A DNA stretch of 64,000 nucleotides, taken from positions 1 to 64,000 of the forward strand of contig NZ_LMIK01000007.1 in the NCBI RefSeq assembly GCF_001428685.1, read 5' to 3'. The notes beneath the pieces are model-generated. The model was given only the letters and a program-made list of their open reading frames with translations. It made no database searches and was not told the DNA's origin. Below are positions 14,721 to 29,779 of the stretch, in pieces (the stretch's first letter is position 1; every line of letters starts with the position of its first letter). The stretch comes from Lysobacter sp. Root76. GTDB taxonomy: Bacteria; Pseudomonadota; Gammaproteobacteria; Xanthomonadales; Xanthomonadaceae. A program made the translations under genes and the position numbers.

Positions 14721-14740
14721 TTGCTAGCCCAAGAGAAAGT
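14713..14740. repeat. 11-bp inverted repeat ending the array
   Basis: ACTTTCTCTTG (14713-14723) pairs with CAAGAGAAAGT (14730-14740). The left arm is the end of the 197-bp unit. The right arm and following AACCAAAGAGAAGGGC look like the other end of the same mobile repeat class. Confidence 0.6.
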
Positions 14741-15056
14741 AACCAAAGAGAAGGGCTTGCCTAGACAACCCTCCCGTGCGAGATCGGAGGTGGCGCGGGG
14801 ATTTTTCGAAGGAACATCCTGTTCCTCGAAAAACGGCGCGCGTCCTGCGCGCCGCCCTTCGGGTCTGAGGGTTGGGCGAGTGCGGGGCGTTGGATTTCAA
14901 TGCAACGGCAACGGCAACGGCAACCGAAGCTGCGGTTGTAACAGCCATGGCAACCGCAACTGCTTTGGTTTTTTGCCGTCATCTCCGCGAAGGCAGGATC
15001 CAGTGGCTTCAGCGCCCAATCACGCTTAGGTGCATACGTCCCAGCGCTCGCTTGCC
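14741..15056. other. Gene-free stretch with hairpin and hexamer repeat
   Basis: 14804-14838 forms a long hairpin (TTTTTCGAAGGAACA / TGTTCCTCGAAAAA). 14898-14925 contains four GGCAAC/CAACGG hexamers. An open frame (14721-15029) runs through, but its composition is set by the repeats; it has no convincing start context and is not called. This region follows the 197-bp array and precedes the phosphatase stop. Confidence 0.5.
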
Positions 15057-15377
15057 TCACAAATGCCGCGGCACCCTAGCCTCCAGCAGCTCCACCAGCG
15101 CCGGTTCCATGTAGTCGTACTCGTCCGGTATATCCAGGCATACCACGCGCTTGCCCTTGAGCTGCACACGAAACCGCTGTTGCAGCTTGATGCGCTGCGC
15201 CTTCTCCATCACGAAGATCAGCTCCGCCCATTCGACCAGGTCGGCACCCAGCGGCTGCTCCGCGTCGTGCTTGAGCCCGGCCGAGGCGACCTCGAGGTCG
15301 GCCCGGCCGCCGAACAAATGCTCGGCGGTCGGGCTGCGCAGCCGGTTCTGGCCGCAGACGAACAAGATCCGCTTCAT
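15057..15377 (-). CDS. Low-molecular-weight protein tyrosine phosphatase-like protein
   Basis: A 106-residue protein starting MKRILFVCGQNRLRSPTAE. The C-x5-R phosphate loop (CGQNRLR, residues 8-14) is followed by Ser, as in LMW phosphatases. DIPDEYDYMEP near residues 80-90 would supply the general acid Asp. It is shorter than classical LMW-PTPs (about 150), like the compact stand-alone family seen in many proteobacteria. It begins 13 bp after pepQ, so the two are probably cotranscribed. Substrate unknown. Confidence 0.85.
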   Translation of the reverse strand: MKRILFVCGQNRLRSPTAEHLFGGRADLEVASAGLKHDAEQPLGADLVEWAELIFVMEKAQRIKLQQRFRVQLKGKRVVCLDIPDEYDYMEPALVELLEARVPRHL

Positions 15378-15390
15378 CGCATCGCGCGGT

Positions 15391-16716
15391 TCAGGCCGCT
15401 TCCGCGAAACCGTCGCGGGTCAGGTTGATCGGCGCGCCGTCGGTGCAGACCACGTCGTCCTCGATGCGGATGCCGCCGTAGGGGCGGAATTGCTCGATCC
15501 GGTTCCAGTCCACCGCATCGGCGTGAGGGCCCTGCTTGAGGCCATCGAGCAGCAGGTCGATGAAGTAGACGCCCGGTTCGATCGTCACCGCCATGCCGAC
15601 GCCCAGTTCGCGGGTCAGGCGCAGGTAGGGCTGGCCCTCTGGCTTGGCGATGGTGCCGCCGCGGTCGGAGGCGGCGAAGCCGGCGACGTCGTGGACCTGC
15701 AGGCCGATGCCGTGGCCGATGCCGTGCGGGAAGAACACGTTGCTGACGCCGGTTTCCAGCGCCGACTCTGGCGAGAGCTTGATCACGCCGAAGTCCTTGA
15801 GGATGCCGGACAAGGCCAGATGGGCGTCGAGGTGGATGCGCTTGTAGTCGGTGCCGGCGCGGACCTGGTCGCACATCTTAAGCTGGGCCGCGTCGACTGC
15901 GTCGATCAGGGCCTGGAACTCGCTGCCGGCGTCGGCGGCGTAACTGCGGGTGATGTCGCAGGCATAGCCGTGGTGGCTGGCGCCGGCGTCGATCAGGAAG
16001 CTGCGCAGCTGCGCCGGTGCCTCGCGCTCGAGCTCGGTGTAGTGCAGCACGGCGCCGTTCTGGTTCAGGGCGACGATGTTGTTGTACGGCAGGTCGGCGC
16101 CTTCCTGGCGCGCGGCAGCGCAGTAGGCCAGGTGGATGTCGAACTCGCTGCCGCCGTTGCGGAACGCGGCCTCGGCGGCGCGGTGCGCGCGCACGCCGCG
16201 GCGGGTGGCGGCCCGCATCATCTGGACTTCGTACGGGGTCTTGTAGGCGCGGTGGAATTCGAGATAGTCGATCGCCGGCTGCGGGTTGTTGGGCACGTAG
16301 GCGCCCAGCGCGCTCTGCGGCTCGCCGAGGATCGCGCAGCGCGCAGGGTCGGACGGCAGATGGGCGAGGGCTTCCTCGGGCTTGCGGATCACCACGATGT
16401 CGAAGTGATCGACCCAGTAGCCGCTGGGCGCCTGCGGCACCACATGCCAGTAGTCGAACGGTTGCAGGTAGATGAGCTTGGGCTTGCGTCCCGGCGTCGC
16501 GACCAGCCAGCTGCCCGGGTTGCGGGTCAGCGGCAGCCAGGCCTTGAACTGCGGGTTCACGGCGTAGGGATAGTCGCGATCGTCGAAGAACTGGTAATGC
16601 GAGGTCCCGCTGGGCACGACCAGGTGATCGAGACCGGCGCGCTCCAGTGCCTCGTGAACGCGACCTTCAAGCTCGGCCAGGTGGGCGGGGTACAGGCTCG
16701 CTGGATCGTGGGACAT
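15391..16716 (-). CDS. pepQ: Xaa-Pro dipeptidase
   Basis: A 441-residue cytosolic M24 metallopeptidase that splits dipeptides ending in proline. It also belongs to the prolidase group that can hydrolyse organophosphate-like esters. Metal ligands are visible: FLIDAGASHHGYACDITRSY (two Asp), FFPHGIGHGIGLQVHD (His), TIEPGVYF (Glu) and GIRIEDD (Glu). The start at 16716 (MSHDPASLYPAHLAELEGRV) is the normal PepQ N-terminus; the frame stays open upstream without family similarity. A decayed copy of this 5' end lies at 26.9-27.1 kb. Confidence 0.96.
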   Translation of the reverse strand: MSHDPASLYPAHLAELEGRVHEALERAGLDHLVVPSGTSHYQFFDDRDYPYAVNPQFKAWLPLTRNPGSWLVATPGRKPKLIYLQPFDYWHVVPQAPSGYWVDHFDIVVIRKPEEALAHLPSDPARCAILGEPQSALGAYVPNNPQPAIDYLEFHRAYKTPYEVQMMRAATRRGVRAHRAAEAAFRNGGSEFDIHLAYCAAARQEGADLPYNNIVALNQNGAVLHYTELEREAPAQLRSFLIDAGASHHGYACDITRSYAADAGSEFQALIDAVDAAQLKMCDQVRAGTDYKRIHLDAHLALSGILKDFGVIKLSPESALETGVSNVFFPHGIGHGIGLQVHDVAGFAASDRGGTIAKPEGQPYLRLTRELGVGMAVTIEPGVYFIDLLLDGLKQGPHADAVDWNRIEQFRPYGGIRIEDDVVCTDGAPINLTRDGFAEAA

Positions 16717-16780
16717 CAGGGAAGTTCTCTGGGGGAGTTCGGGGATTTTGACGGATTCCGTCCGTTCCCGCAGGCCGGCT
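16617..16780 (-). repeat. pepQ 5' end: left copy of a 160-bp direct repeat flanking the 17-27 kb module
   Basis: This stretch covers the first 33 codons of pepQ and about 65 bp upstream. It aligns by eye along its whole length with 26939-27102 in the same orientation. The two copies share blocks such as GCCTCGTGAACGC, AGGTGGGCGGGGTA, TCGCTGGATCG and GACGGATTC. The distance between copies is about 10.3 kb. Confidence 0.75.
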
Positions 16781-16967
16781 GCGTAGCCAGAGGCCGGACA
16801 AATGTTGCGCCGCCGCATCTCGCCTCGTTCGTGAAAACCGCGATTTCGCCGGGGAAAATGCCGGATCGCGATGCCGTAGCGGCGGCCACGCACCCGCACA
16901 AACGAGCCCCGGCGCGACGGAGTATGCTGCCGGCCTGCGCATACCAACGCGTATGGGGAGGGACTCG

Positions 16968-17537
16968 ATGGCAGACCCGGCGCCGTCAGCGCGCGAACCG
17001 GCATCGCTCGCCGACTATGGCGAGGATTGCGCCAGCCAATGGGAGAACATCTCCCTGCAGTACCGCGCGCCGTTGCGCGGATTCTTCTCCAAGCGAGTCA
17101 AGGATCCGGCCGAAGTCGAAGACCTGACCCAGGAGGTGTTCCTGCACCTGGTTCGGCGCGCGCGCGGCGGGCCGATCGAGCATGTAAAACAGTACGTTTT
17201 CCAGATCGCCGCCAACGCCCTGCGCGACTGGGGCCGCCGTCGCCAGGTCCGCGACCAGGACGCGCACGAGTCCTTCGACGAGGAAATTCACCAGCCCGCT
17301 ACGGAAATCTCGCCGGAGCGCGTCTTACTGGGAGAGGAGGCGGTGAAACTGGCTGTCGCCGTCCTGCGTGCGCTGCCGCAGCGTACGCGCGACGTGTTCG
17401 TGCTGCGCACAATGGAGAAGCGGAAATATATGGACATTGCCAACATGTTGGGCATTTCGGTGCGGGCCGCCGAAAAGCATATGGCCAAAGCGCTGGCGCA
17501 ACTGGGCCGCGCGATGGACTCGGAGACGCCGGAATGA
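16968..17537 (+). CDS. ECF sigma factor (FecI-like)
   Basis: A 189-residue sigma-70 family factor with region 2 (LRGFFSKRVKDPAEVEDLTQEVFLHLVR, about 35-62) and region 4 (LPQRTRDVFVLRTMEKRKYMDIANMLGISVRAAEKHMAKAL). It lacks region 3, as ECF factors do. Start 16968 (MADPAPSAREP) has GGGGAGGG 5 nt upstream; ATG 16953 is also in frame. A FecR-type anti-sigma gene and an STN-domain TonB receptor follow, so it should direct transcription in response to an extracellular substrate. It is divergent from pepQ. Confidence 0.92.
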   Translation: MADPAPSAREPASLADYGEDCASQWENISLQYRAPLRGFFSKRVKDPAEVEDLTQEVFLHLVRRARGGPIEHVKQYVFQIAANALRDWGRRRQVRDQDAHESFDEEIHQPATEISPERVLLGEEAVKLAVAVLRALPQRTRDVFVLRTMEKRKYMDIANMLGISVRAAEKHMAKALAQLGRAMDSETPE

Positions 17538-17616
17538 GCCGGGGCATGCAAGCCGGATGCGATCCGGTCGCCTGCGTCCGTGCGGTCGGGCCGGACGTGT
17601 CGAGGGAGGGCGTCGG

Positions 17617-18696
17617 ATGAACGGGAAAACCACGCCCATCGCGAGCGGACCGGGTCCCTTGCCGGACGATATCGACGAAGCGGCGGCGCGCTGGAGCGAA
17701 GTCCTGCTCGATGCCGACCCCGACGCCGACGCGTCCCTGCGCGCAGCCTTCGAATCCTGGCGCGCTGGCTCGCAGGCGCACGCCACTGCATTCCGGCGGG
17801 TGGAGGCCGCGCACGCTTTGGCGCGCGCGGTCGCCGATGCGCCGGAGATGCTGGAGCTGCGGCGCGAGACCCTGGCGCGCGCCGCGAACGCCAGGCCTTC
17901 GTGCGCGCCGCGCATCTACGCTTACTCGATAGCCGCCTCGCTGGTGGCCGTCGCCGCGATCGGTCTGCTGATCCTGCGGCCCGATGCGCCGGGCCGGATG
18001 GTCCGGGACATGCAGGACGCGATCGCCGGCAACGTCCACGAAACCGGCATCGGCCAGCGTTCGGAGGTGAAACTCGACGACGGTTCGGTGGTCACCCTGA
18101 ACACCGATAGCCGGGTCTCGGTGCATTACGAAGGCAGGATGCGCGCGGTGACGCTGGAGCGCGGGCAGGCCCTGTTCAAGGTGGCGAAGGACCGCTCGCG
18201 GCCGTTCGTCGTCACCGCGGACGGCCGCCAGGTGACCGCGCTGGGCACCGAGTTCGAGGTCCACATGTCCGAACGCCTGTTCGAGGTGACCCTGCTCGAA
18301 GGCCGCGTGACCGTGACCCGCGAACGCACGCAGCCGACCGCGATCGCCGTCGCGCCGACCGCGGAACTGCAGCCGGGCCAGCAGTTCGTCGCGCTGGCGG
18401 CGGCCGTGCCGCAGGTGCGCGCGGCCGACGTAAGGCGGGAAGTGAGCTGGCGGCACGGCCAGGTCGTGTTCGAGAACGAGAGCCTCGCCGACGCCGTCGC
18501 CGAGATCAACCGCTACTCGCGCAACCAGATCGTGCTCGGCGATACGCGTCTGGCGGCGCTGAAGATCAGCGGTGCGTTCAATACCGGCGACACCGACACC
18601 TTCGTCGACGCGGTGACCGCCTACTTCCCGATCGAACGCGCGGTAAGCCAGAGCGACGCGATCGTGCTGAAGCCGCGCGCGCCCGAGCGCGGCTGA
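17617..18696 (+). CDS. FecR-type anti-sigma factor / signal transducer
   Basis: A 359-residue single-pass inner-membrane protein. The cytosolic N-terminus (about 1-95, DUF4880-like: EAAARWSEVLLDAD, ESWRAGSQAHATAFRRVE) would hold the sigma factor. A transmembrane helix lies near 104-122 (YSIAASLVAVAAIGLLIL). The periplasmic FecR domain follows (VKLDDGSVVTLNTDSRVSVHY, ERGQALFKVAKDRSRPFVV, ALGTEFEV). The C-terminal 80 residues (FENESLADAVAEINRYSRN) resemble the STN-interacting end. It starts 79 bp after the sigma gene behind a GAGGGAGGG Shine-Dalgarno. Confidence 0.93.
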   Translation: MNGKTTPIASGPGPLPDDIDEAAARWSEVLLDADPDADASLRAAFESWRAGSQAHATAFRRVEAAHALARAVADAPEMLELRRETLARAANARPSCAPRIYAYSIAASLVAVAAIGLLILRPDAPGRMVRDMQDAIAGNVHETGIGQRSEVKLDDGSVVTLNTDSRVSVHYEGRMRAVTLERGQALFKVAKDRSRPFVVTADGRQVTALGTEFEVHMSERLFEVTLLEGRVTVTRERTQPTAIAVAPTAELQPGQQFVALAAAVPQVRAADVRREVSWRHGQVVFENESLADAVAEINRYSRNQIVLGDTRLAALKISGAFNTGDTDTFVDAVTAYFPIERAVSQSDAIVLKPRAPERG

Positions 18697-19024
18697 CGGC
18701 TCTTGCCTCCGATCCTCCCGTACGTGGCGCAGCAATGCGCCGCGTCGGGTTGCGTCGTGCCCGGCGGCCTCGCGTTCGATTGGTGTCGCGGCGCTCGCCG
18801 GCGCAGGCGCGGCCGGTACCGATCCCGCGCCGATGCGATCGCGGGCGAGGCGATGCCGCGGAACGCAGCTGCGATTTTGTTGCGCTGCAAAACAATTCCG
18901 AGGCGATCGGCGGGTTTCACCGCCCGCATCGCGATTGCGTCGGGACGGGTTCGGGTTTTCCGAATCGCTGCGTCCTTACAAACACGAGGCCACGCGAAGA
19001 GGGCCCGCCACCGGAGGGGAACCG
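18697..19024 (+). promoter_or_regulatory. 328-bp leader of the TonB receptor
   Basis: No gene is seen. It holds an imperfect dyad at 18874-18896 (ATTTTG ... CAAAACAAT), a small GC hairpin at 18911-18926 (GGCGG / CCGCC) and, just before the receptor start, GGAGGGGA. A promoter used by the adjacent ECF factor is expected in this stretch, but I cannot identify -35/-10 elements with confidence. Confidence 0.3.
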
Positions 19025-22000
19025 ATGCGAGTGCAAGACCAGAAGCGACTGTCGAGGCGCGTGCTCAAACCCTGTGTGCTGCTGCTGGCGTTGCTGCCGT
19101 ATCTGACCGCCTATGCCCGCGGCGATGCGATCACCGCCAGGTTCGATATCCCGCAGCAGCGGCTCGATGCCGCCTTGTCGGAATACGCGCGCCAGAGCGG
19201 CCAACAGTTGCTGTATTCGCCCGAACTCGCGGTCGGCAAGACCGGACGCGCGGTGCGCGGCGAGAAGCCGACCTTACAGGCGCTGGACGAACTGCTCGCA
19301 GGTACCGGTCTCAAATACTCGACCAGCGCATCCGGCGCGATCCTCATCAACGGCAGCGCGGGCGGACATTCGGCGTCGGAGGACGCCAAGCCTCCTGCCG
19401 ACGCGGTGCCACCGGGAAACGCAGAGGGGACCGCTGACACGCAGCCGGCGGCGGACTCCCAGGCAGAACCGCAAACGGCGCCCGATCCCACCGCTACGGC
19501 CAAGGCCCAGGCGGCGACCAATCTCGACACCATCGTGGTCACCGCGCAGAAGCGCGTCGAGCGCATTCAGGATGTGCCGATCGCGATCAGCGCGTTCAGC
19601 GGCGACGATCTGGGCGACCGCAAGATCGAAACCGGCGGCGATCTGGTGACGGCGACGCCGAACGTCACGTTCAGCAAAACCAACTTCGCCAGCTACAACT
19701 TTCAGATCCGAGGCATCGGCACGCAGGCCTTGTCGGTGACCACCGATCCGGCCGTGGCGATCAGCTTCAACAGCACGCCGATGATCCGGAACCGTCTGTT
19801 CGAACAAGAATACTTCGACGTGGACCGGGTCGAGGTGCTGCGCGGGCCGCAAGGCACCTTGTACGGCCGCAACGCCACCGCCGGCGTGGTCAACATGATC
19901 CCGAAGCTGGCCGACCCCAGCGCCTACGAAAGCTGGTTCAAGGTCGAAGCCGGCAATTTCGACAGCAAGCGGTTCAGCGGCATGGTCAACCTGCCGATCA
20001 ACGAGGCGCTGGCGTTCCGCATGGCCGGCGCCTGGACCGACCGCAGCGGCTACATCGAGAACACCGCCACCGGCAGGGATGTCGACGATCGCAGCCTGTG
20101 GTCGACGCGCGCCTCGGTGGTGTTCAAACCCAGCGACGCGACCAACCTGAGCCTGGTCTGGGAGCATTTCGACGAAGACGACAGGCGTGCGCGCACCGGC
20201 AAGCAGCTGTGCCATACCGACCCCGGCGCTACCGACGTCGACGGCATTCCGCCGAACAGCTTCGATCGCAACTTCATGAGCCAGGGCTGCGCGGACGGTT
20301 CGCTCTACGATCGCGGCGCCTTCGGCCTGCCCAACGGCGGCAGCCTGCCGTGGGTGCTGGCGAGCGGCACCTTTCCCGGCACACTGGCCTCGGCGCTCGA
20401 TCCCGACGGCAACTTCGTCGGCCCGATCTACCTCATTCCGCCGGGCGTGAACCCCTACGAGGGCCGCACCCAGTCGACCGACCTGCGCCAGATCGAGACC
20501 ACCTACGATCCCAGGTTCCAGGCCAAGAACGATGTCGTCCAGTTCAACTTCGACACCGAAATCAACGAGAAACTGAAGTTCGTCTCGCAGACGCTGTACA
20601 CGCGCGACAAGTACTACTCGACCCAGGACTACAACCGCTTCCAGTCCAATGCGGTGTTCACCGACACCGATCCGCTGGTGCAGATCACGCCCAACGGCGA
20701 TCTGGCGCCGGCCTATCCGCTGGCGCCGAAGGGCGTGCTTTGCGACCCGCAGCTGGGATGTTCGGATCGCATGCTGGGCGTCGACCTGGTCGATTCCTAC
20801 AGCAAGCAGTGGTCGCAGGAGTTCCGCCTGCAGTCGATGTCCGAAGGCCCGTTCAACTTCAGCATCGGCGCCAACTACCTGTACTACTCGGTCGACGAAA
20901 GCTACTACGTCTTCAACAACGTCTTCACCGCGATCGCGCGGAACTTCAACAACACCGCCGGCGTCGGCCTGGGTTCCGGCAATACCCCGGTCGACTGCCC
21001 GCAGGGCAACGGCGGCGCGACCGTCAATGGCTTGTCCGGCTACCCCTGCGTCTACATCGACCCGAACTCGCTCGACAGCATCGACGGCCAGGGGCACAAC
21101 TATTTCCGCAGCCGCAACGTCGCCAAGACCAAATCCGCCGCGTTGTTCGGCGAGGCCTACTGGCAGCTGTCCGATACGGTCAAGCTGACCGCCGGTCTGC
21201 GCCTGACCCGCGACACCAAGATCACCACGCCGTATCCGAGCCAGACCCTGCTGTCGTCCACCAAATCCGGCCCGCCGTACTACTCCTTCGTCGGCGCCGG
21301 CTTCGTCAACAGCGGCTACCCGGCGCTGCCCGATGTCCGTCAGACCTGGAACGAGCCGACCGGACGCCTGGTGCTGGACTGGAAACCCGACCTGCCGTTC
21401 ACCGACAGCACCCTGGTGTACCTGTCGGGCTCGCGCGGCTACAAGGCCGGCGGCACCAACTCGCCGGCCATCGGCGCCGATCCCGATTTCCTCAGCTTCA
21501 CCCAGCGCGATCTCGGATTCGATGCGGAGTTCGTCAACGCGTTCGAGCTCGGCATGAAGAACGTAATGGCCGACGGCAAGCTCAATCTGAACGCCACCGT
21601 GTTCTACAACGACTACCGTGGCTATCAGGTTTCGCAGATCCAGGACCGCGCCACCTTCAACGAGAACTTCGACGCCAAGACCTGGGGCGCGGAAATCGAA
21701 CTGGCGTGGCGGCCGACGCCGTCGTTCCAGCTCAGCGGCAACGTCGGGTTCCTGCGCACGCGCCTGGACGACAACCAGTACTCGATCGACGTGATGAATC
21801 GCACCCAGGGCAATCCCGACTGGGTCGTGTTGCGGCCGTGGGTGCAACAAGCCTCGAACTGCATCGCGCCGCGCGACAAGGTGGCGCAGGTCATGGCCCT
21901 GATCTACGCCGGCGGCGACGTCACCTCCAATGCAGGCATCATCCTCAACAGCTTCTGTTCGCTCAATTATCCGGTCGCGGTGGGCGGATTCACGCCGGGC

Positions 22001-22444
22001 GGCTCCTGGGGCGATGCGTTCGGGTTCTTCTACGACCCGCGTACCGACGCGCCGAACGGCGGCCAGGGCTTTGCGGCCAACGTCGGCGGCAACGAGCTGC
22101 CGAATGCGCCGCACATCACCGCCAGCCTCAGCCCGCAGTACACGTTCTTCACCGCGCACGGCGATTTCACCGTGCGTGCCGACTTGTACTACCAGGGCGC
22201 GAGCTGGGCGCGCATCTACCAGGACGAGATCGACCGCCTGCACGACTGGGGCAACGTCAACCTGTCGCTGACCTGGCAGAAGCCCGAAGCCGATCTGACC
22301 GTACAGCTCTACGTCAAGAATCTGCTCGACGGCAAGGCGATCACCGGCACCTTCCTCAACAGCGACGACAGCGGCCTGACCGCGAACGTGTTCACGCAGG
22401 ACCCTCGCATCATCGGCATCTCGCTGCGCAAGGGCTTCTTCTGA
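19025..22444 (+). CDS. TonB-dependent outer-membrane receptor with STN signalling domain
   Basis: A 1139-residue outer-membrane protein, large for the family. A signal peptide (about 1-33) precedes a secretin/TonB N-terminal (STN) domain (about 37-110: FDIPQQRLDAALSEYARQSG, LDELLAGTGLKYS), which signals to FecR. A Pro/Ala-rich linker follows (about 120-160). The plug contains LDTIVVTAQKR and VEVLRGPQGTLYGRNATAGVVNM. The barrel runs to a C-terminal Phe-Phe. LDTIVVTAQKRVERIQDVPIA is typical of Sphingomonas/Xanthomonad receptors for diverse, often hydrophobic or carbohydrate substrates, not only iron. With the upstream sigma/anti-sigma pair it forms a complete cell-surface signalling unit. Substrate unknown. 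Confidence 0.94.
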   Translation: MRVQDQKRLSRRVLKPCVLLLALLPYLTAYARGDAITARFDIPQQRLDAALSEYARQSGQQLLYSPELAVGKTGRAVRGEKPTLQALDELLAGTGLKYSTSASGAILINGSAGGHSASEDAKPPADAVPPGNAEGTADTQPAADSQAEPQTAPDPTATAKAQAATNLDTIVVTAQKRVERIQDVPIAISAFSGDDLGDRKIETGGDLVTATPNVTFSKTNFASYNFQIRGIGTQALSVTTDPAVAISFNSTPMIRNRLFEQEYFDVDRVEVLRGPQGTLYGRNATAGVVNMIPKLADPSAYESWFKVEAGNFDSKRFSGMVNLPINEALAFRMAGAWTDRSGYIENTATGRDVDDRSLWSTRASVVFKPSDATNLSLVWEHFDEDDRRARTGKQLCHTDPGATDVDGIPPNSFDRNFMSQGCADGSLYDRGAFGLPNGGSLPWVLASGTFPGTLASALDPDGNFVGPIYLIPPGVNPYEGRTQSTDLRQIETTYDPRFQAKNDVVQFNFDTEINEKLKFVSQTLYTRDKYYSTQDYNRFQSNAVFTDTDPLVQITPNGDLAPAYPLAPKGVLCDPQLGCSDRMLGVDLVDSYSKQWSQEFRLQSMSEGPFNFSIGANYLYYSVDESYYVFNNVFTAIARNFNNTAGVGLGSGNTPVDCPQGNGGATVNGLSGYPCVYIDPNSLDSIDGQGHNYFRSRNVAKTKSAALFGEAYWQLSDTVKLTAGLRLTRDTKITTPYPSQTLLSSTKSGPPYYSFVGAGFVNSGYPALPDVRQTWNEPTGRLVLDWKPDLPFTDSTLVYLSGSRGYKAGGTNSPAIGADPDFLSFTQRDLGFDAEFVNAFELGMKNVMADGKLNLNATVFYNDYRGYQVSQIQDRATFNENFDAKTWGAEIELAWRPTPSFQLSGNVGFLRTRLDDNQYSIDVMNRTQGNPDWVVLRPWVQQASNCIAPRDKVAQVMALIYAGGDVTSNAGIILNSFCSLNYPVAVGGFTPGGSWGDAFGFFYDPRTDAPNGGQGFAANVGGNELPNAPHITASLSPQYTFFTAHGDFTVRADLYYQGASWARIYQDEIDRLHDWGNVNLSLTWQKPEADLTVQLYVKNLLDGKAITGTFLNSDDSGLTANVFTQDPRIIGISLRKGFF

Positions 22445-22464
22445 AGCCCGACCTTCCTCCCATC

Positions 22465-22495
22465 CCTGCCGGCGTCGCTAGCGCAAACCGGCAGG
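22465..22495 (+). terminator. Hairpin after the TonB receptor
   Basis: CCTGCCGG (22465-22472) pairs with CCGGCAGG (22488-22495). It lies 21 bp after the receptor stop. There is no T-run, so it may attenuate rather than terminate before the next gene, which begins 98 bp later. Confidence 0.4.
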
Positions 22496-22593
22496 AAGTG
22501 TCGCCACGGCATCCGATCCATCGTGGCAAACCCGCCTGACGCATCGAGCGTCCGGCGATTCCGGTCGTACTCGTACAAGGAGAGTTGAATACC

Positions 22594-23130
22594 ATGAAGC
22601 TTAAGTCAGCCATACTCGCTGCCTGTGTTGCGGCAGGCGCGTTCTGCTCATCTTCCGCTTTCGCCGGTTGGGAAATCTATGACGCCGGGACCGCGACCTG
22701 GGGCGACGGAACCGTCGTCCTCTCGGGCCCGACCTCGGCTACCGTCAACGGCATCCCGGCGCCGTGCACCGCCAACTTCACGCTCACGGTAACGGGCGGC
22801 GTGGCCGTGGTCTCGGCCGCCACCTTCACCGGCAGCTCGACCTGCAACAACATCACCTCCAGCGCCGCGACCCCGCCGCACTGGTCGGTGTCGGGCACCG
22901 CTTCCGGTACTTCGGTGTCCACGACGGTCGGCGGAATCAGCATCACGATCCTGGGCAAGACCTGCACCGGCAGCGTCGCGGGCACGCTGACGAACGCGCA
23001 TCCCTACGGCGGCGGCAGCAACGGATTCTCGTTCCCCGTCACCAGCCTGCCCGTCACCGGCGGCGGCACCTGCACGGTCAAGTCGAATCCCTCGCTGACC
23101 GCCAGCAAGCCCATCCAGCTGACGCCTTGA
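22594..23130 (+). CDS. Secreted protein resembling PraB (alkane-oxidation activator family)
   Basis: A 178-residue exported protein. Residues 1-25 are a signal peptide (MKLKSAILAACVAAGAFCSS, ending AFA). The mature part is rich in Thr, Ser, Gly and Ala with regularly spaced cysteines (CTANFTLT, STCNNITS, KTCTGSV, GTCTVKS) and looks all-beta. The pattern recalls PraA/PraB proteins of Pseudomonas and Xanthomonads, secreted helpers in alkane use or surface hydrophobicity; this is from memory and needs a search. Start 22594 is chosen over TTG 22585, which abuts the Shine-Dalgarno AGGAGAG. It lies downstream of the signalling receptor. Confidence 0.7.
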   Translation: MKLKSAILAACVAAGAFCSSSAFAGWEIYDAGTATWGDGTVVLSGPTSATVNGIPAPCTANFTLTVTGGVAVVSAATFTGSSTCNNITSSAATPPHWSVSGTASGTSVSTTVGGISITILGKTCTGSVAGTLTNAHPYGGGSNGFSFPVTSLPVTGGGTCTVKSNPSLTASKPIQLTP

Positions 23131-23378
23131 GTGCGGACATCCGTGCGATCGGACCCTAGGCATCGATCGTAAGCACGGCCACGACGCCGACGGCACCCGC
23201 GTTTTGGTACGGGCCATCCCCGCCGCTACGAGCACGGACCGCTCAAAGCATGGATCGCTTTAAGCGGCGCGGGATGGGCCCACCGCCGTCGGCATGGACG
23301 GCGCCGCGACCCGACCCCGGTTCGCGGCGCATCGGGCCATCGTCGAAACGGCTCTCCCATTCCATCCAGGAGTTAAAC
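23131..23378 (+). other. 248-bp gap between the two secreted-protein genes
   Basis: No gene is supported. The frame of the next gene is open through much of it but lacks a plausible start. The last 12 bp carry CCAGGAG before ATG 23379. A separate promoter is likely but not identifiable by eye. Confidence 0.3.
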
Positions 23379-24293
23379 ATGTTCAAGACGACGCTTTCCG
23401 TGGCTTTTGCCACGGCCTTAGCCGGAATCGCCGTCACGTCCGCCGCATCCGCGGCCGTACCCACCGGTCCCTACGCGATCTTCAAGTACTGCCCGTACAA
23501 CAATCCGCAAGTCGGCGCCTGCGTGGTCAACACCACCACTTCCGGCACGCTCGCGATGGGCGCCACCACCTTGCCGATCACCCAACCGATCGTGTTGCAG
23601 GGCGGTGTGATCGACACCGGCCCCTCGCCGCTCTACGACGCGGTGGGCGCGGCGACGCTGTCGGCTCCGGCGGCGAAAGTGCCCGGCGGCCTGCTCGGCA
23701 TCACCAACCCCTTGCCGGAGTGGCCGCTCCCGCTTTGGGTCGCGTTCTGGAACATCGTCGGCACGGTCAACGACGTGACCGCGACCATGGAGCCGGTCGA
23801 CACCATCCAGACCAACTTCGGCAATGCACTGTTTCCTCCGGACGACGGTAGCGACCCCACCGCGGCGACGCTGAAGGTGCGCGTGCGCCTGCAGAACCCG
23901 TTCCTGGGCAACAGCTGCTATATCGGCTCGGCGCAGAACCCGATCACGATCAAGCTGCAAACCGGCACCACCCAGCCGCCGCTGCCGAATCTGCCGATTT
24001 CGGGCAACCCGGGCAGCTACGACTTCGAGACGACCGATCCGGACAACGGCTACAGCGTGCTCCACATCAGCGACAACACCCTGGTCGACAACTCGTTCGC
24101 GGTGCCGGCGGCGAAGGGCTGCGGCAACATCGCCTTGGGCTTGCCGATCATCACCCAGCTGCTCGATACGCTGGTCTCGGGCGCGGTGAACCTGAAGGTG
24201 GGCCTGCCCTCGGCCTCAGGCAAGAACACCGCCATCATGAGCGGCAAGTCCGCCATCGCCGGTACGCCGTCGGTGCTGTCCAGCGTTCAATAA
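23379..24293 (+). CDS. Secreted protein of unknown function, actinobacterial-like
   Basis: A 304-residue exported protein with a signal peptide (MFKTTLSVAFATALAGIAV, cleavage after about residue 26). The mature N-terminus FKYCPYNNPQVGACVVNTTT, then GTLAMGATTLPITQPIVLQGG, recalls secreted proteins of Streptomyces, Nocardia and Rhodococcus with a 'CP.NNP...C' opening; this is recollection, not a search. Cysteines are few (CPYNN, GACV, NSCYIG, KGCGN) and could form two disulfides. No transmembrane segment after the signal. It sits behind the PraB-like gene in the receptor module and ends at a strong hairpin. The function is not known to me. Confidence 0.75.
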   Translation: MFKTTLSVAFATALAGIAVTSAASAAVPTGPYAIFKYCPYNNPQVGACVVNTTTSGTLAMGATTLPITQPIVLQGGVIDTGPSPLYDAVGAATLSAPAAKVPGGLLGITNPLPEWPLPLWVAFWNIVGTVNDVTATMEPVDTIQTNFGNALFPPDDGSDPTAATLKVRVRLQNPFLGNSCYIGSAQNPITIKLQTGTTQPPLPNLPISGNPGSYDFETTDPDNGYSVLHISDNTLVDNSFAVPAAKGCGNIALGLPIITQLLDTLVSGAVNLKVGLPSASGKNTAIMSGKSAIAGTPSVLSSVQ

Positions 24294-24326
24294 GTGACGG
24301 GCGATTCGCGCGATGCAACACCCTAC

Positions 24327-24354
24327 GCAAGGCGGTTCGCGAGAACCGCCTTGC
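24327..24354 (+). terminator. 12-bp perfect stem-loop after the secreted-protein gene
   Basis: GCAAGGCGGTTC (24327-24338), GCGA loop, GAACCGCCTTGC (24343-24354). It falls between the 24293 stop and the 24369 start and marks a likely transcript boundary. A weak T content follows. Confidence 0.6.
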
Positions 24355-24368
24355 GATACTATCGAGGC

Positions 24369-25340
24369 ATGAATCGAGGGGTTCTGTGGATGGCGCTGGT
24401 TGCGACGGCCGTAGCCGTCGGCGCGTATTGCTTTGAACGCTTTGGGGACGGTCAGGCCGCGGCGGAGACCAATTCGGTACGGGCCGGGACGCAAGCCGAG
24501 ACGCCTGCGGTGGCCGGTGGAAACCCCGGTTCCGCAACGACGCTTCAAGTCTCGGTATCGCCCGGTTCGGCTGCCGCACCGTTGAAGGACGCATTCGCGC
24601 AGTTGCAGGCGCAAGCCGAGGCCGGCGATGCCGTCGCTGCGACCCGCCTGTATCGAAATGTCGGGTTTTGCAGCCGCTTGCCAGCACTGGATTGGATGTT
24701 GACGCGCACCGCCGACGAGCTGCTCGCGCAAAAGACCGAAAAGATGGATGCGCAGCAGCTACGCGACTACAAGATCCAGCTCGATGCGATCGAAGAGCGC
24801 AAGCCGGTCATGAAGCGCTTCCACGATCTGTGCGACGGAGCCAGCGCCGAAATGCTCGCCAGCCTGGTGCCCAGCCTCAAGCGTGCCGCCGAACTCGGCG
24901 ACGTCGATGCGCGCGCCTGTTATCTCAAGCAGGGGCCGAATGTCGATCCGCGCAGTTTCGCGACGCGGCCCGAGCTGCTCGACGGTTATCGTCGCAGCGT
25001 CCATGCCCTGATCGATTCCGGTATGCAGGCAGGAGATTGGAAAGTGGTCGACATCGTCCGCCATGCGTCCCGAGTCGGCTCCGACAGCCTGCTTTCCGGC
25101 CTGCTGGGTTCGGACCCTACGCTGCACTACCGCTATCTCAAGCTATACCGCCTCGGCATGGGGCCGCGCGATGGCGCCCGACTGGATCAGCAGCTCGACT
25201 CCGCGGCCGCCTCGTTGTCTCCTGCGCAGCGCATAGACGCCGATGTCTGGGCGCAGACCACCTTGCAGAAGAGTTTCAGCGGTTACTCTGCGCAGGAAAC
25301 GCCCGAGGGCTGGGATCCTTGCGGGTTCTCCTACGAATGA
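24369..25340 (+). CDS. Membrane-anchored protein of unknown function, tandem paralogue 1
   Basis: A 323-residue protein. One N-terminal hydrophobic helix (LWMALVATAVAVGAYCF, about 6-22) anchors or exports a hydrophilic, largely helical body. LQAQAEAGDAVAATRLYRNV and AAELGDVDARACYL are Sel1/TPR-like helical hairpins. Conserved Cys residues occur in FCSRL, LCDGAS, ARACYL and DPCGF. I do not recognise a named family. The next gene is a clear paralogue overlapping by 4 bp (ATGA), so the two are coupled. Start 24369 (MNRGVLWM) fits the anchor; the frame is open upstream through the terminator. Confidence 0.75.
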   Translation: MNRGVLWMALVATAVAVGAYCFERFGDGQAAAETNSVRAGTQAETPAVAGGNPGSATTLQVSVSPGSAAAPLKDAFAQLQAQAEAGDAVAATRLYRNVGFCSRLPALDWMLTRTADELLAQKTEKMDAQQLRDYKIQLDAIEERKPVMKRFHDLCDGASAEMLASLVPSLKRAAELGDVDARACYLKQGPNVDPRSFATRPELLDGYRRSVHALIDSGMQAGDWKVVDIVRHASRVGSDSLLSGLLGSDPTLHYRYLKLYRLGMGPRDGARLDQQLDSAAASLSPAQRIDADVWAQTTLQKSFSGYSAQETPEGWDPCGFSYE

Positions 25341-26371
25341 AACCTCTCTTCGGCGATACGCAGGCGACTCCATCCAGGTCTTGGGGCATGAGCAAATATC
25401 GCTTCCTACTGTGGGCTTGCCTGGTGCTGGCAGCCTTGTTCGGCGCCTATCTGCTCGGCCGCAAGGAAGGATCGAGCGGGCATCCGACGGCGCTGCCGGC
25501 GACCACCGCGGCGGATCCCGCCGGCCAGGCTCCCGGCAGCGAGCTGCCGATCGTCGCCAAGGCGAGTCTCGACTTCGACCGGGGCGCGTCGATGCCGCCG
25601 CTGGGCACGCCGCTGAAGACGGTGTATGCGCAATTGCAGGCGCAGGCGAACGCGGGCGACGCCCGGGCGGCAGCGCGATTGTTACGCGACCTCAACCGTT
25701 GCAGCCGTTTGCGCGCCACCGAATGGTCGACGATGCGCAATGCCGGCGACCTCACCGAGCACAAGACGGAGAATTTGAACGCGGCGCAGTTGCGGACCTA
25801 TCAGGTCCTGCTCGAATCCGCCGAGATCCGTCAGCGCGAAGTGGAAGAAGGGCGGACCTTGTGCGCGGATGTCGGCGACGAGATTCTCGATACCTTGAAC
25901 GCGAACATGGCCCAGGCCGCCCGGCTCGGCGACGCCGACGCGCGCGCCTGCTATCTCAGCCGCGGGCCGCTGTACGACCAGCGCAGCCTGCTCAAGCAAC
26001 CGGCTGCGCTCGGCGCGTACCGCCGCGAGGCGACGGCGTTGATCGAGAGCGGCCTGGCCGCCGGGGACTGGCGGGTCGTCGATCTGCTGCAGAGCGCCTA
26101 CGAGCCGGGCTCGCAGAGCCTGCTGGCGGGCGTGGTGGGCACCGACGTGGACCGGCACTATCGTTATCTCAAGCTTTATCGTCTCGGCGCGGAAAACTTC
26201 CGGGCGGCCCAGATCGACCGGCAGCTCGCGCTCGCCGCGGCGAACCTGAGTCCGGCGCAGCGCGCCGAAGCCGACGAGTGGGCGCAAACGACACTGCGCG
26301 AGAACTTCAACGGCGCCTCGACCGCCGGCACACCGCAGGGCTGGGATGCCTGCGCGCCTTTCGGGGGTTGA
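25337..26371 (+). CDS. Membrane-anchored protein of unknown function, tandem paralogue 2
   Basis: A 344-residue paralogue of the preceding gene, sharing AQLQAQA.AGDA.AA.RL, a run of CSRL, GDVDARACYL-like segments, LI.SG..AGDW.VVD and the identical HYRYLKLYRLG. A single N-terminal transmembrane segment (FLLWACLVLAALFGAYLLG) follows MSKYR. ATG 25337 overlaps the previous stop; ATG 25388 (MSKYRFLLW) gives a normal anchor and may be the true start. Function unknown. The pair arose by tandem duplication and has diverged to roughly 40% identity by eye. Confidence 0.75.
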   Translation: MKPLFGDTQATPSRSWGMSKYRFLLWACLVLAALFGAYLLGRKEGSSGHPTALPATTAADPAGQAPGSELPIVAKASLDFDRGASMPPLGTPLKTVYAQLQAQANAGDARAAARLLRDLNRCSRLRATEWSTMRNAGDLTEHKTENLNAAQLRTYQVLLESAEIRQREVEEGRTLCADVGDEILDTLNANMAQAARLGDADARACYLSRGPLYDQRSLLKQPAALGAYRREATALIESGLAAGDWRVVDLLQSAYEPGSQSLLAGVVGTDVDRHYRYLKLYRLGAENFRAAQIDRQLALAAANLSPAQRAEADEWAQTTLRENFNGASTAGTPQGWDACAPFGG

Positions 26372-26860
26372 GCCAGATCGGCACGCGTGGGCTGAGAACG
26401 GGGGATCGTGTGACGCGCGTCGCACGGGTCGGTGCGGACCCAGCTTGAGGCAGCGACGCCGGCGTACCTAGCGGCAGCCAGCCAAGCTGGCCCGGAGCCC
26501 TTTGGCCGAGCCGGTCGTAGGGCGGCTCAAATCGCTCAGGGAAACCGAGCGGACGTCACCGACAGCGGCTTGCCGCTTCTATCGCTATAAAGACCGGTAT
26601 CAGCATCGGCTGAGTCTGGAGAGACAGACCGCCAGCGAGCGCCGGATCCCGACCGAGTCGCGCCGGCACGGTCGCGCCTGCGCGGATCGCGGCGAGTGGC
26701 CGCTCGCATCCTCTGGATTCCGTAGGGAACTTGTAGACGCGTCGTCACTCAAGGCAGGCGATCGCCGGCTACGGCCAGAAGCGCAGGTGGGCGGCCGCAT
26801 GCTCCGCGATTCGCCGAAGACCGCGCAGCGCGGTTGAGGCGGCTTTGGACAGGGAGGGTC
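26372..26860. other. Gene-free stretch left of the pepQ remnant
   Basis: Short frames here (26502-26837 plus, 26536-26748 minus, 26600-26800 minus) have no recognisable protein content, no good ribosome-binding sites and no neighbours in phase. No transposase, tRNA or clear terminal inverted repeat is seen. It could be decayed sequence at the right edge of the inserted module. Confidence 0.35.
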
Positions 26861-26884
26861 TTGCGCGGATTGCGGATCGCCACG

Positions 26885-27036
26885 ACGGCGTAGACTGATC
26901 CCGACGCTCGAGCCCTAGGTAGCGCGGGCCCGCCGGCCGTGACCAGGCGTTCGAGACCGGCATGCCTCGGGCCTCGTGAACGCAATGTTGAAGCTGGGCG
27001 AGGTGGGCGGGGTAGGATCGCTGGATCGCGGGACAT
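26885..27036 (-). pseudogene. Remnant of a second pepQ 5' end
   Basis: Read on the minus strand from 27036, it gives MMSRDPAILP then, after a 2-base deletion, a frame still recognisable as PAHLAQLQHCVHEAR. This compares with MSHDPASLYPAHLAEL...VHEAL in intact pepQ. DNA similarity continues to about 26885 (roughly codon 50) and then fades. It has at least one frameshift and no catalytic domain, so it cannot encode a peptidase. Confidence 0.75.
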
Positions 27037-27102
27037 CATGGAGGGTCTCTTGGGGACGTCCAGGGATTTCGACGGATTCTCTTCGTCCTCGCAGGGCGGC
27101 TC
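26939..27102 (-). repeat. Right copy of the pepQ 5'-region direct repeat
   Basis: It aligns with 16617-16780 in the same orientation, covering pepQ codons 1-33 and about 65 bp of its upstream region. Small indels and scattered substitutions leave roughly three quarters of bases identical by eye. The GGDEF/EAL gene that follows starts inside it, at 27038. Confidence 0.75.
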
Positions 27103-29779
27103 GGTCGACGGCGGGCGCGGCTTCGCCGGTTCCGGCAATCCGCCGACCGACGTTTCCGACCGGATCGCGCCGCTGGGCGTGCCGGCATGGGCCTTGAGCC
27201 TGCTCGCGCTGGCTTTCGGGGTCGCCCTGACCCTGTGGCTGGGCGGCGCGCAGGAGCGGCGCGTGGTCGACGATCGCACCGCCGCGCTCGAGAGCAGCGC
27301 GGAGCGCGGCTATCACTCGGTGGTCGATCGCCTGCAGGCCTGCGAACTGCTGCTGCGCTCGGTCCAGACCCTGTTCCTGACCTCGGACGAAGTCACGCCC
27401 GCCGAATTCGCCAACCTCTACGCCAACGTGCGGCCGCGCGAGCGCTTTCCCAGCCTGCAGGCGATGGCCTATTCGCGCCGCGCGCCGCGAGTGGACGGCG
27501 ATCACTACATCACCGACCTGGTCGCGCCGCTGGCCGGCAACGAGCGCGTGGTCGGGCTGGACGTGAACCTGCAGCCGACCAATCTGGTCGGCGTGCTGAG
27601 TTCGCGCGACAGCGACCGCGCGGTGCTGTCGGCGCCGTTCCGGCTCGCTCAGCAGCGCGGCCCCGATTCGCGTCGCGACGGCGTGACCATGCGTCTGCCG
27701 GTATTCACCGCCGGCCCGCCGCCGGCCACGCAGGAGGAGCGTCGCGCGCGCATGCGCGGCTCGATCGCGATCTCGTTCCACGCCGGGCAACTGATCGAGG
27801 GCGGCCTGGGCGAGGAGGCGCGTCGCCAGCTGCAGGTCGAAGTCAGCGACGTCACCGACGGTACCGCGCCGGACAAGGCGATTTCGCTGTTCGCGACCGG
27901 CCCGGCCCCGACCGCGGCCACGGGATATAGGTTCGAACGCGACATCGACTACGGGGGGCGTCGCTGGCGGGTGCGCATGCGCGCGCTGAATTCGGTCAAG
28001 AACGGCGTGAGCGGGCACAACTGGGTGCTGCTGCCCGGCTTGCTGGCGAGCGTGCTGCTGGCGGCGCTGGTGTGGTCGGTCGCGCGCACGCGCCGGCTGG
28101 CGCTGGAGCTGGGCTCGCGCATGAGCCGCCGCTACCGCGAGAGCGAAGAGCGCTTCCGTGTCCTCAACGAACTGCTGCCGGCGCTGGTGCTGCTGGCGCG
28201 CCGCGACGACGGCAGCATCACCTACGCCAACCAGGCCTCGCGCGCGCGCCTGGGCGAGGCCATATACGAAGTGCCGCTGCCGGAGCTGTTCGAGGACGAA
28301 CTGCTGCGCGACAAGCTGCGCGCGGCCGACCTGGTCGACTGCGCCAACGCCGAGGCCATGCTGCGCAGCGTCAACGGCGACCGCTTCTGGGCCAACGTGT
28401 CGATCACCGGCGTGGTGCTGGAGGGCCGTTCCAAGCTGCTGATGGTCGCTTCCGATATTTCCGAGCAGCGCCAGCTCACCGAATTGCTGACGTATCAGGC
28501 CAGTCACGACACCTTGACCGAGCTCTACAACCGGCGCGAGTTCGAGCGCAGGATCGAGCGCGTGCTGGCCGCCGTCGCCGCGGGCGGCCCGCCGTGCGCG
28601 CTGCTGTATATCGACCTGGACCAGTTCAAGCTGATCAACGATACCTCCGGCCACGTCGCGGGCGATCAGCTACTGAGCCAGCTGGCGACGATGATGAGCG
28701 TGCACTTGCGCGGCGGCGACGTGCTCGCGCGCCTGGGCGGCGACGAATTCGGCGTGCTCGCCACCGAAGTCCACGACCTCGCCGGGGCGATGCTGGTGGC
28801 CGAACGCCTGCGCGAGCACATCGACGGCTACGTGTTCGTATGGGAGCAGCGCACCTACACCGTCACCGCGAGCATCGGCGGGGTGATGCTGGACCGCGCC
28901 AACGTGACCCTCAAGGATCTACTGTCGCAGGCCGATACCGCTTGCTACATGGCCAAGGAGGGCGGCCGCAATCGCGTGCATTTCTATTCCGAGCACGACG
29001 ACAACGCCGCGCGCCGGCGCAGCGAGATGGAATGGGCCAATCGCCTGCGCTGGGCGATCGACGAGGGCCGGCTGCTGCTCAAGTACCAGGAGGTCTGGCC
29101 GCTGTCGGCGGACGCCGAGCCCGGGCTGCACCTGGAGCTGCTGCTGCGCTTCCGCGACGAGGAGGGCCGGCTGGTGGTGCCCGGCGCCTTCATTCCCGCG
29201 GCCGAACGCTACGGCCTGATGCCGATGATCGACCGCTGGGTGATCGAGACCGCATTGGCCAACTTCGACCGCCTGCATCCGTCCGGCCAACAGCTGCGCA
29301 CGGCGACCATCAACCTCTCCGGCGCCAGCATCGAGGACGAGACCCTGGCCGACCTGATCCTGGAGCTGCTCAAGCGCCACGCCGTCGAGCCGCAGCGGGT
29401 CTGCTTCGAGATCACCGAGACCGTGGCGGTACGCAACCTGGCCCAGGTCGCGCGCTTCATCGAGCGTCTGCGCGCGGTCGGCTGCCGGTTCGCGCTGGAC
29501 GATTTCGGCGCCGGCATGTCCTCGTTCGGCTACCTCAAGAATCTGCCGGTGGACATCATCAAGATCGACGGCGCCTTCATCCGCGATCTGCTCACCGATC
29601 CGATGAGCCATGCCATCGTCAAGGCGGTGACCGACATCGGCCACCAGCGCGGACTCAAGGTGATCGCCGAGTGGGTGACCAGCGACGAGATCCTGATGGA
29701 GTTGGGGGCGATGGGCGTCGACTACGCCCAGGGCTACGCCTTGCACCAGCCCGAGCCGGTGCCGTTCCATCGGCGTTGA
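27038..29779 (+). CDS. CHASE-PAS-GGDEF-EAL membrane c-di-GMP enzyme
   Basis: A 913-residue inner-membrane protein. One transmembrane helix near residues 47-69 (WALSLLALAFGVALTLWLG), a periplasmic CHASE sensor (LQACELLLRSVQTLFLTSDEV through about 320), a second helix (LLPGLLASVLLAALVWSV), a PAS domain, then GGDEF (ARLGGDEFGVL) and EAL. EAL reads LELLLRF with its Glu. DDFGAGMSSFGYLKNLPVD and KIDGAF are present, but the usual AEGVET is AEWVTS, losing one Glu. Synthesis is likely; hydrolysis is uncertain. The first 22 residues come from the antisense of the pepQ leader remnant. TTG 27050 behind GGAGGG is an alternative start. Confidence 0.88.
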   Translation: MEGLLGTSRDFDGFSSSSQGGSVDGGRGFAGSGNPPTDVSDRIAPLGVPAWALSLLALAFGVALTLWLGGAQERRVVDDRTAALESSAERGYHSVVDRLQACELLLRSVQTLFLTSDEVTPAEFANLYANVRPRERFPSLQAMAYSRRAPRVDGDHYITDLVAPLAGNERVVGLDVNLQPTNLVGVLSSRDSDRAVLSAPFRLAQQRGPDSRRDGVTMRLPVFTAGPPPATQEERRARMRGSIAISFHAGQLIEGGLGEEARRQLQVEVSDVTDGTAPDKAISLFATGPAPTAATGYRFERDIDYGGRRWRVRMRALNSVKNGVSGHNWVLLPGLLASVLLAALVWSVARTRRLALELGSRMSRRYRESEERFRVLNELLPALVLLARRDDGSITYANQASRARLGEAIYEVPLPELFEDELLRDKLRAADLVDCANAEAMLRSVNGDRFWANVSITGVVLEGRSKLLMVASDISEQRQLTELLTYQASHDTLTELYNRREFERRIERVLAAVAAGGPPCALLYIDLDQFKLINDTSGHVAGDQLLSQLATMMSVHLRGGDVLARLGGDEFGVLATEVHDLAGAMLVAERLREHIDGYVFVWEQRTYTVTASIGGVMLDRANVTLKDLLSQADTACYMAKEGGRNRVHFYSEHDDNAARRRSEMEWANRLRWAIDEGRLLLKYQEVWPLSADAEPGLHLELLLRFRDEEGRLVVPGAFIPAAERYGLMPMIDRWVIETALANFDRLHPSGQQLRTATINLSGASIEDETLADLILELLKRHAVEPQRVCFEITETVAVRNLAQVARFIERLRAVGCRFALDDFGAGMSSFGYLKNLPVDIIKIDGAFIRDLLTDPMSHAIVKAVTDIGHQRGLKVIAEWVTSDEILMELGAMGVDYAQGYALHQPEPVPFHRR

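Follow-up and report, generated by a model that had tools for sequence, protein, structure and literature searches.

Receptor specificity and the secreted partner co-vary in the pyoverdine-FpvA allele pairs, and in FecI-FecR-FecA signalling an extracytoplasmic function (ECF) sigma factor, a FecR anti-sigma factor and a TonB-dependent receptor built of STN, plug and barrel domains follow each other in that order, with a promoter-like motif upstream of the receptor gene. In Serratia, the has operon, which encodes a secreted hemophore, runs hasI, hasS, hasR, hasA, hasD, hasE and hasB in the excerpted account of PMC9249621. Here we describe a module that resembles both, found in a 64,000-nt stretch of the 4.36-Mb genome of Lysobacter sp. 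Root76 (hereafter the window, to whose whole length all positions refer): it shares the components, the I-R-A order and, by sequence, a promoter-like motif with FecI-FecR-FecA, and the order of sigma factor, anti-sigma factor, receptor and secreted partner with the has operon as excerpted there, and it adds genes for a second secreted protein (sec2, beside sec1) and for two membrane-anchored paralogues (anc1 and anc2). As judged from alignments, synonymous divergence and trees, a single tract comprising the receptor barrel, sec1, sec2 and anc1 was replaced in the window lineage, with the left joint at the plug/barrel border. On the account that we favour, with modest confidence, this seven-gene surface-signalling operon was inserted at the junction of pepQ and a divergent GGDEF gene in a clade ancestor, the exchanged cassette determines specificity and the other half does the signalling. 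The features are as follows.

15391-16716, minus strand: pepQ (Xaa-Pro dipeptidase), intact, the left neighbour; PepQ_N and Peptidase_M24 domains, NCBIfam PRK13607.1 at 621 bits against a cut-off of 339.
16312-16780: left junction copy, the pepQ 5' part plus a GGDEF 5' stub (about 16717-16780), from alignments.
16968-17537, plus strand: ECF sigma factor (Sigma70_r2, Sigma70_r4_2).
17617-18696, plus strand: FecR-type anti-sigma factor; FecR (PF04773, 9.9e-21) and DUF4880.
18877-18892, plus strand: conserved, operator-like block TTGTTGCGCTGCAAAA (TG-N-TGC-N3-GCAAAA) 5' of the receptor gene, in 14 of 14 aligned loci.
18948-18974, plus strand: predicted ECF promoter GGTTCGGGTTT-N12-CGTC, from conservation.
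19025-22444, plus strand: TonB-dependent receptor with STN at residues 61-108, plug at 181-288 and then the barrel (Pfam).
19913-25593, plus strand: putative exchanged cassette of barrel, sec1, sec2, anc1 and the anchor/linker of anc2, from trees, synonymous divergence and change points.
22594-23130, plus strand: sec1, a secreted protein whose relatives match PraA/PraB in NCBIfam.
23379-24293, plus strand: sec2, secreted, an orphan family outside Pfam, NCBIfam and PDB matches.
24369-25340, plus strand: anc1, a membrane-anchored helical protein, the first paralogue.
25388-26365, plus strand: anc2, the second paralogue, with an N-terminal membrane helix, a disordered linker and an all-helical domain (AlphaFold2).
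26801-27101: right, decayed pepQ/GGDEF junction copy, from alignments.
27038-29779, plus strand: CHASE-PAS-GGDEF-EAL gene (the GGDEF gene), the ancestral divergent neighbour of pepQ, from Pfam and from adjacency in five other-genus loci.

Domain scans bore out the gene content that a sequence-only reading had proposed for the module. Both region 2 and region 4 of the ECF sigma factor score above cut-off, and the protein is 94-97% identical to those of four Lysobacter relatives (G015, G062, G203 and G204) that form a clade with the window; the gene for the FecR-domain anti-sigma factor adjoins it. The STN domain of the receptor reaches 28.6 bits against a cut-off of 28.4, and the plug and barrel are likewise recognised. 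An Rfam scan of 14000-30000 gave no match reaching the gathering score.

When the window is compared with G015 in 300-bp steps, nucleotide identity is 91-94% in pepQ, 90-94% in the ECF gene and 75-89% in FecR. Over the receptor it holds at 84-91% from the start to the end of the plug and drops thereafter: the barrel is at 65-76%, the surroundings of sec1 at 54-64%, sec2 at 70-73% and anc1 at 55-63%. Most of anc2 is again at 81-82%. The left change point, located with sites common to four relatives, is at 19913 (19896-19918), about nine codons past the end of the Pfam plug, and the right one is at 25593 (25573-25636), where the anchor/linker part of anc2 ends. Synonymous divergence (dS) between the two genomes is 0.28 in pepQ, 0.28 in the ECF gene, 0.48 in FecR, 0.35 in the N-terminal part of the receptor and 0.31 in the GGDEF gene, as against 0.73 in the barrel, 0.80 in sec1, 0.60 in sec2 and 1.20 in anc1 (the dS comparisons left out sec1 of the multi-copy loci L056 and L057). 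Since dS is raised in the same tract, the divergence reflects replacement rather than selection alone.

In the trees of FecR (from which the divergent FecR of L058 was left out) and of anc2, the five clade members form a single clade (100/100). For sec2 and anc1 a clade of these five is rejected (p 1.6e-4 and p 7e-5, respectively), and there the other four join Luteimonas aquatica. A tree of three flank genes (a second M24 peptidase gene, pepQ and GGDEF) places G062 outermost and the window inside (96/99), and a grouping of the other four to the exclusion of the window is rejected for these genes (p 0.022). The receptor tree is a FastTree topology only, without an approximately unbiased test, and its deep branches are weak (the window stands beside L058 at 0.157). 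Against a purely vertical descent of the module in the genus, a single Lysobacter clade is rejected for sec2 and anc1; it is not rejected for anc2 (p 0.072) or FecR (p 0.14). The simplest reading of these trees would be one replacement in the window lineage plus one older transfer between the clade and a Luteimonas.

Two further comparisons place joints in the same part of the receptor. L. aquatica and three of the four clade relatives share 61% identity over receptor residues 1-175, 90% in the barrel and 89-90% in sec2, then 65-71% in anc1 and 53-61% in anc2; the joint lies between STN and barrel, its exact place being hidden because receptor residues 176-325 are missing. Reciprocally, in P. 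yeongjuensis the ECF and FecR proteins are only about 31% identical to those of the window and the STN 25-26%, as opposed to 68 and 77% in two ordinary inter-genus pairs, with an ordinary plug (92-94%) and barrel (64-68%), and with STN and FecR domains that are both recognised by Pfam. In this species the sigma factor, FecR and STN are divergent as one block, whose joint precedes the plug.

Within the receptor it is the plug that stays constant, with mean protein identities of 94-100% among Lysobacter modules. This constancy and the contiguity of the exchanged genes would also suit a neutral mosaic, in which recombination simply starts at the conserved plug and sec1, sec2 and anc1 travel with the barrel merely as its neighbours, and short pieces of the plug region do recur at many places in the searched genomes (query 10489-10567). 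We consider such a neutral origin possible but rather doubtful, because two comparisons place the left joint between STN and barrel and the end of the tract near the anc1/anc2 border, and because the reciprocal exchange stops on the opposite side of the plug, STN having gone with FecR. The replacement of an entire barrel could instead reflect diversification under pressure from phages or bacteriocins that exploit the receptor, with the secreted proteins as decoys or shields. In line with this, sec1 is often the fastest gene, at 66, 80 and 72% identity in three of five close pairs among other modules whose barrels are 96-99% identical (omega 0.45-0.58); yet it stands at 99 and 92% in the remaining two, and sec1 and sec2 hold their position in modules of several genera, which fits a core function better and makes us regard this alternative as improbable. 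Several points weigh against the reconstruction of a co-exchanged functional cassette itself: dS over the whole of anc2 is also raised (0.74), the right joint is soft because its change point lies in the fast-changing linker of anc2, the exchange events number no more than two or three, and co-exchange alone does not prove contact, as a replaced tract spans whatever genes lie inside it.

On the favoured account, sec1 and sec2 would capture or solubilise a ligand from outside the cell, which is probably hydrophobic, and pass it to the receptor barrel, with anc1 and anc2 as anchored helical scaffolds on the periplasmic side. By homology to FecA and HasR, the STN domain would relay ligand binding to FecR, freeing the ECF sigma factor, which is predicted from conservation to read a single promoter, GGTTCGGGTTT-N12-CGTC, and so to switch on the receptor, sec1, sec2, anc1 and anc2 genes. 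Sequence comparison shows that the tract from barrel to anc1 was replaced in the window lineage and that the tract from sigma factor to STN is different in one other species, with one joint on each side of the near-invariant plug. From this co-exchange we infer that the parts of each tract work together, the cassette setting ligand specificity and the remaining half signalling. A bolder and doubtful extension is a protein lock-and-key, in which the secreted carriers deliver a scarce hydrophobic nutrient solely to the co-inherited barrel allele and keep it private to the producer lineage, the plug acting as a built-in recombination joint for separate swaps of the two cassettes between species.

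Upstream of the receptor gene, the motif GGTTCGGGTTT-N12-CGTC is invariant across 14 aligned loci except for one letter in L061, so that by sequence a promoter-like element is conserved where a sigma-dependent promoter would be expected. Searching 26 genomes, we found 24 matches in 20 of them, and none for the reversed pattern; 18 of the 24 lie at the module receptor gene (including that of G070, whose module is split between contigs), and the genome of the window has a single site. Among the 19 genomes searched whose module has a near-identical ECF sigma factor, 18 carry the exact motif by the receptor gene (G032 has one mismatch), and in P. yeongjuensis, with its different ECF factor, no motif was found at the module even when two mismatches were allowed. 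This distribution suggests that the sigma factor is a dedicated one and has one promoter as its target, although the six matches away from modules, all in genomes other than that of the window, speak against it. The TG-N-TGC-N3-GCAAAA block lies upstream of the promoter motif in all aligned loci; with two mismatches allowed, the window alone would be expected to hold 0.56 matches by chance. A small conserved hairpin (CACGG...CCGTG) of five pairs, with almost no covariation, occurs at about 22501-22530, between the receptor and sec1 genes.

The nature of the ligand was approached through the secreted proteins. PraB is matched by 9 of 17 sec1 relatives (best 4.2e-13) and PraA by 7 of the 17 (best 4.2e-10), which makes kinship of the wider sec1 family to PraA/PraB likely at the level of profile matches and is why we read the ligand as hydrophobic; sec1 and sec2 are read as acting outside the cell with the barrel because they were exchanged together with it. 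PraA and PraB are described, in the excerpted text of PMC4542665, as alkane oxidation activators with an alkane-solubilising effect, and the same excerpt places praA/praB of P. fluorescens SS101 with alkB and ompP1. For sec2 there was no Pfam, NCBIfam or PDB match, and its predicted structure has a pLDDT of 48. The AlphaFold2 model of anc2 is all-helical with an N-terminal membrane helix (mean pLDDT 83); the Sel1 repeat domain found no Pfam match in anc1 or anc2 up to E 10, and likeness to Sel1-repeat proteins is weak, the best Foldseek hits being LpnE (E 0.07) and AlgK (0.11), with none at E<=0.001. We propose that the operon, which resembles the has operon in layout, likely senses and captures a ligand that is probably hydrophobic.

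Against a hydrophobic ligand stand the window sec1 itself, which has no match to the NCBIfam models of PraA/PraB (NF041562/NF041561) at E<=5, and the finding that the PraB matches, which occur in 4 of 200 genomes of the order, are all below the curated cut-off. Moreover, curated FecIR systems mostly serve iron carriers, and in NCBIfam the receptor scores best with TonB-siderophore (148 bits) and TonB-hemin (72 bits), neither of which reaches its cut-off. Ordinary iron or heme uptake, in which the receptor would import a ferric chelate or heme and the secreted proteins would be hemophore-like, is thus a serious rival to the hydrophobic reading and a possible one, if not the one to which we incline: the FecI/FecR/STN layout agrees with it, as does the has operon, which, according to the excerpt of PMC9249621, shares the gene order and has a secreted hemophore. 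On the other side, the module contains neither a hemophore nor a siderophore-synthesis family (in Pfam and NCBIfam, sec1 and sec2 are without a hemophore match), several sec1 relatives match PraA/PraB, and relatives of the module carry TetR_C_30 regulators.

The order ECF, FecR, TonB receptor, sec1, sec2, anc1, anc2 recurs at other loci in eight further Lysobacter and also in Luteimonas and Pseudoxanthomonas, and by this shared order the module is a conserved operon. L. enzymogenes ATCC 29487 (L068), for example, has a complete module together with the promoter-like motif. An anc match (E<=0.001) is present in 74 of 247 genomes of the family, with two strong copies (>200 bits) in 17 of them and a single strong copy in G114; within the genus, 15 of 20 genomes have sec2. 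The anc copies split by position into two old groups in the tree, indicating a pair that is older than these genera. Upstream of the module, the eight other Lysobacter and L. panaciterrae carry a related extra gene; in the two that were scanned (L048:13674-14480 and L057:13397-14230) it encodes a TetR_N plus TetR_C_30 regulator, which is not beside the module in the window and may belong to an earlier form of the system. Reduced relatives without ECF and FecR matches occur in Rudaea, Dokdonella and Dyella (four loci), each with a TetR_C_30 gene nearby, and no STN domain was found in the receptors of the two scanned modules that lack ECF and FecR (L081 and L082). The modules of the eight other Lysobacter have three kinds of flanks, and as flanks differ between genome groups no original chromosomal site can be named; turnover of flank genes instead of movement of the module may account for this. 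Genes like sec2 also occur in Actinobacteria, often in tandem and without other module genes, and neither there nor at two Rhodococcus plasmid loci did their neighbours show a common function.

Individual loci show further variation. In Lysobacter sp. ISL-50 the FecR gene is separated from that of the receptor by about 3.3 kb of extra DNA (L049:12019-15350), and sec1 is present in three copies in the L. aquatica module (L056:2655-8085) and in two in L. panaciterrae (L057:2710-7537). Five tandem sec2-like genes stand at L084:1081-6170 (Solirubrobacteraceae), and pairs in most Actinomadura loci. A 49-bp piece that is 84% like L048:15902-15950 recurs many times, irregularly spaced, near the ends of contigs C1, C8 and C11 of the window genome.

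As to how the module came to its present site, the sequence-only reading had described direct copies of the pepQ 5' end at both ends and an event beside pepQ that duplicated it. A genome search with 16300-16900 returned, besides itself, only 26922-27101 in the same orientation (79% identity, E 1.8e-36), and local alignment of the two copies scores 172, against 42 for the best of 75 control chunks from the same window, confirming a direct repeat with no third place in the genome; the starts of the two pepQ copies are 10,320-10,323 bp apart, as the proposed size of 10.3 kb had implied. The alignment of about 160 bp that had been claimed to include pepQ's upstream region is real, but the core measures about 180-190 bp, a decayed and gapped extension reaches about pepQ codon 125-135 (16312-16343 against 26801-26832, 84%), and the supposed upstream part, about 65 bp outside pepQ on the left (16717-16780), pairs, in the right copy, with the opening codons of the divergent GGDEF gene (about 27038-27101). 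There was a duplication, but of the whole pepQ/GGDEF junction, about 0.4-0.5 kb, rather than of the pepQ 5' end.

The ancestral arrangement was sought in 20 pepQ loci fetched from relatives, to which G203 and G204 were added later (tblastn matches spanning <25% of the query were dropped from the locus tables). The module lies between pepQ and the GGDEF gene in two of the 20 (G015 and G062), and also in G203 and G204. In five of the 20, all from other genera (G035, G193, G048, G069 and G012), pepQ is divergent from and directly adjacent to GGDEF with no module between, the starts being a few bp apart in three and the alignment of the GGDEF N-terminus incomplete in two. The remaining 13 loci, six from the genus and seven from other genera, have neither the module nor GGDEF beside pepQ (L010-L018 and L023-L026), an observation that suggests frequent loss or relocation of the GGDEF gene. 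The module-free junctions that the earlier reading had called for thus exist and support insertion with duplication, and the contrary outcome, module and fragment in all relatives, was not seen among the 20 loci. The left stretch 16717-16800 matches the outgroup junctions of G035 (43/45 letters), G069 (34/40) and G012 (46/57) with scores of 38-49 against shuffled maxima of 23-25, and those of G193 and G048 barely above shuffled sequence (27 and 25 against 23 and 24); on the right, 27038-27120 clearly matches G035, G193 and G048 (43-45 against 24-28) and gives no clear match to G069 and G012. Neither stretch is above chance in the six genus members without GGDEF beside pepQ. From these matches, the left copy is pepQ plus a GGDEF stub and the right copy a pepQ stub plus GGDEF, and the repeat, as the alignments indicate, is the old pepQ/GGDEF junction.

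Both copies are present in all five clade genomes (the window, G015, G062, G203 and G204), and each right copy has decayed differently (two scrambled controls per pair), which argues that the insertion is older than the split of the clade; on this comparison it is old and inherited in the five-genome clade. The insertion would have duplicated the junction in the ancestor of the five sampled Lysobacter genomes, the right pepQ piece decaying afterwards. An intact pepQ at one end, a remnant at the other and a difference of 21% between them could also mean that an incoming pepQ displaced a resident one, of which the right piece is what remains; we think this very unlikely, since the left copy too carries a GGDEF 5' stub and the clade pepQ groups with that of the genus, by identities and in the tree that uses pepQ as one of three genes. 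To return to junction duplication, a circle carrying the junction and the module may have integrated by a single crossover, which would yield both copies, and a tandem duplication around the insertion may have left a product that looks identical; the insertion itself is ordinary.

The module was also considered as a mobile element, a possibility that was rejected because no integrase or transposase was seen in the scanned proteins and no long inverted repeats at the module ends. The earlier statement that no integrase or transposase remains holds for the seven module proteins and the open reading frames (ORFs) at 26502-26837 (plus strand) and 26749-27279 (minus strand), in which Pfam found no integrase, transposase or relaxase family, other short ORFs being unscanned. 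With sec2 as sole query, a plasmid search returned distant relatives only (six records, Rhodococcus, 27-29%) and a viral-contig search one short 39% fragment. Nor do the repeats define the module as a unit, as had been suggested: the clade inherited the arrangement, and the same gene order recurs at other chromosomal sites in other species, which defines the module better. Outside the repeat, an imperfect direct-repeat array lies at 14007-14724, between the second M24 peptidase gene and pepQ, with five copies of a 79-bp unit around GGGAGCGGCGTAAGCCGCGA and with 106- and 123-bp repeats at 90-97%.

Which proteins, secreted or periplasmic, belong to a given TonB receptor is seldom known, and natural cuts at the STN/plug and plug/barrel borders suggest such a partner map ahead of experiment, with sigma factor, FecR and STN on one side and barrel, sec1, sec2 and anc1 on the other. 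With one predicted sigma promoter in each genome, the regulon can be tested directly. Should the ligand prove hydrophobic, PraA/PraB-like solubilising proteins would be tied to a dedicated receptor and sensor, and the sec2 and anc1/anc2 families, for which Pfam and NCBIfam have no models, would gain a setting. For a specialist, the exchange at the borders of the plug deserves the closest look.

Set against FecI-FecR-FecA, the module adds two secreted and two anchored proteins outside Pfam and NCBIfam, and its exchange joints flank the plug. In comparison with the has operon, it has no HasA-like family or TonB paralogue, and the hasD/hasE-type (type I) secretion genes are absent from its seven genes; in their stead come two secreted proteins of other families and anc1/anc2. 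With PraA/PraB of Pseudomonas the likeness consists of sec1 relatives that match both NCBIfam models, whereas the module has no alkane hydroxylase, the window sec1 is unmatched and the matches in the 200 genomes are below cut-off. The partner in the pyoverdine-FpvA pairs is a peptide siderophore, whereas here secreted proteins would take that role. The module had been put forward as the best candidate for an undescribed system. The signalling by FecI, FecR and an STN receptor is of a known kind, but the extra genes are unusual, and for the operon and its block-exchange pattern we found no paper in the literature searched. The operon is a variant of FecIR cell-surface signalling, set apart by its additional secreted and anchored proteins and by the exchange of its parts in blocks.

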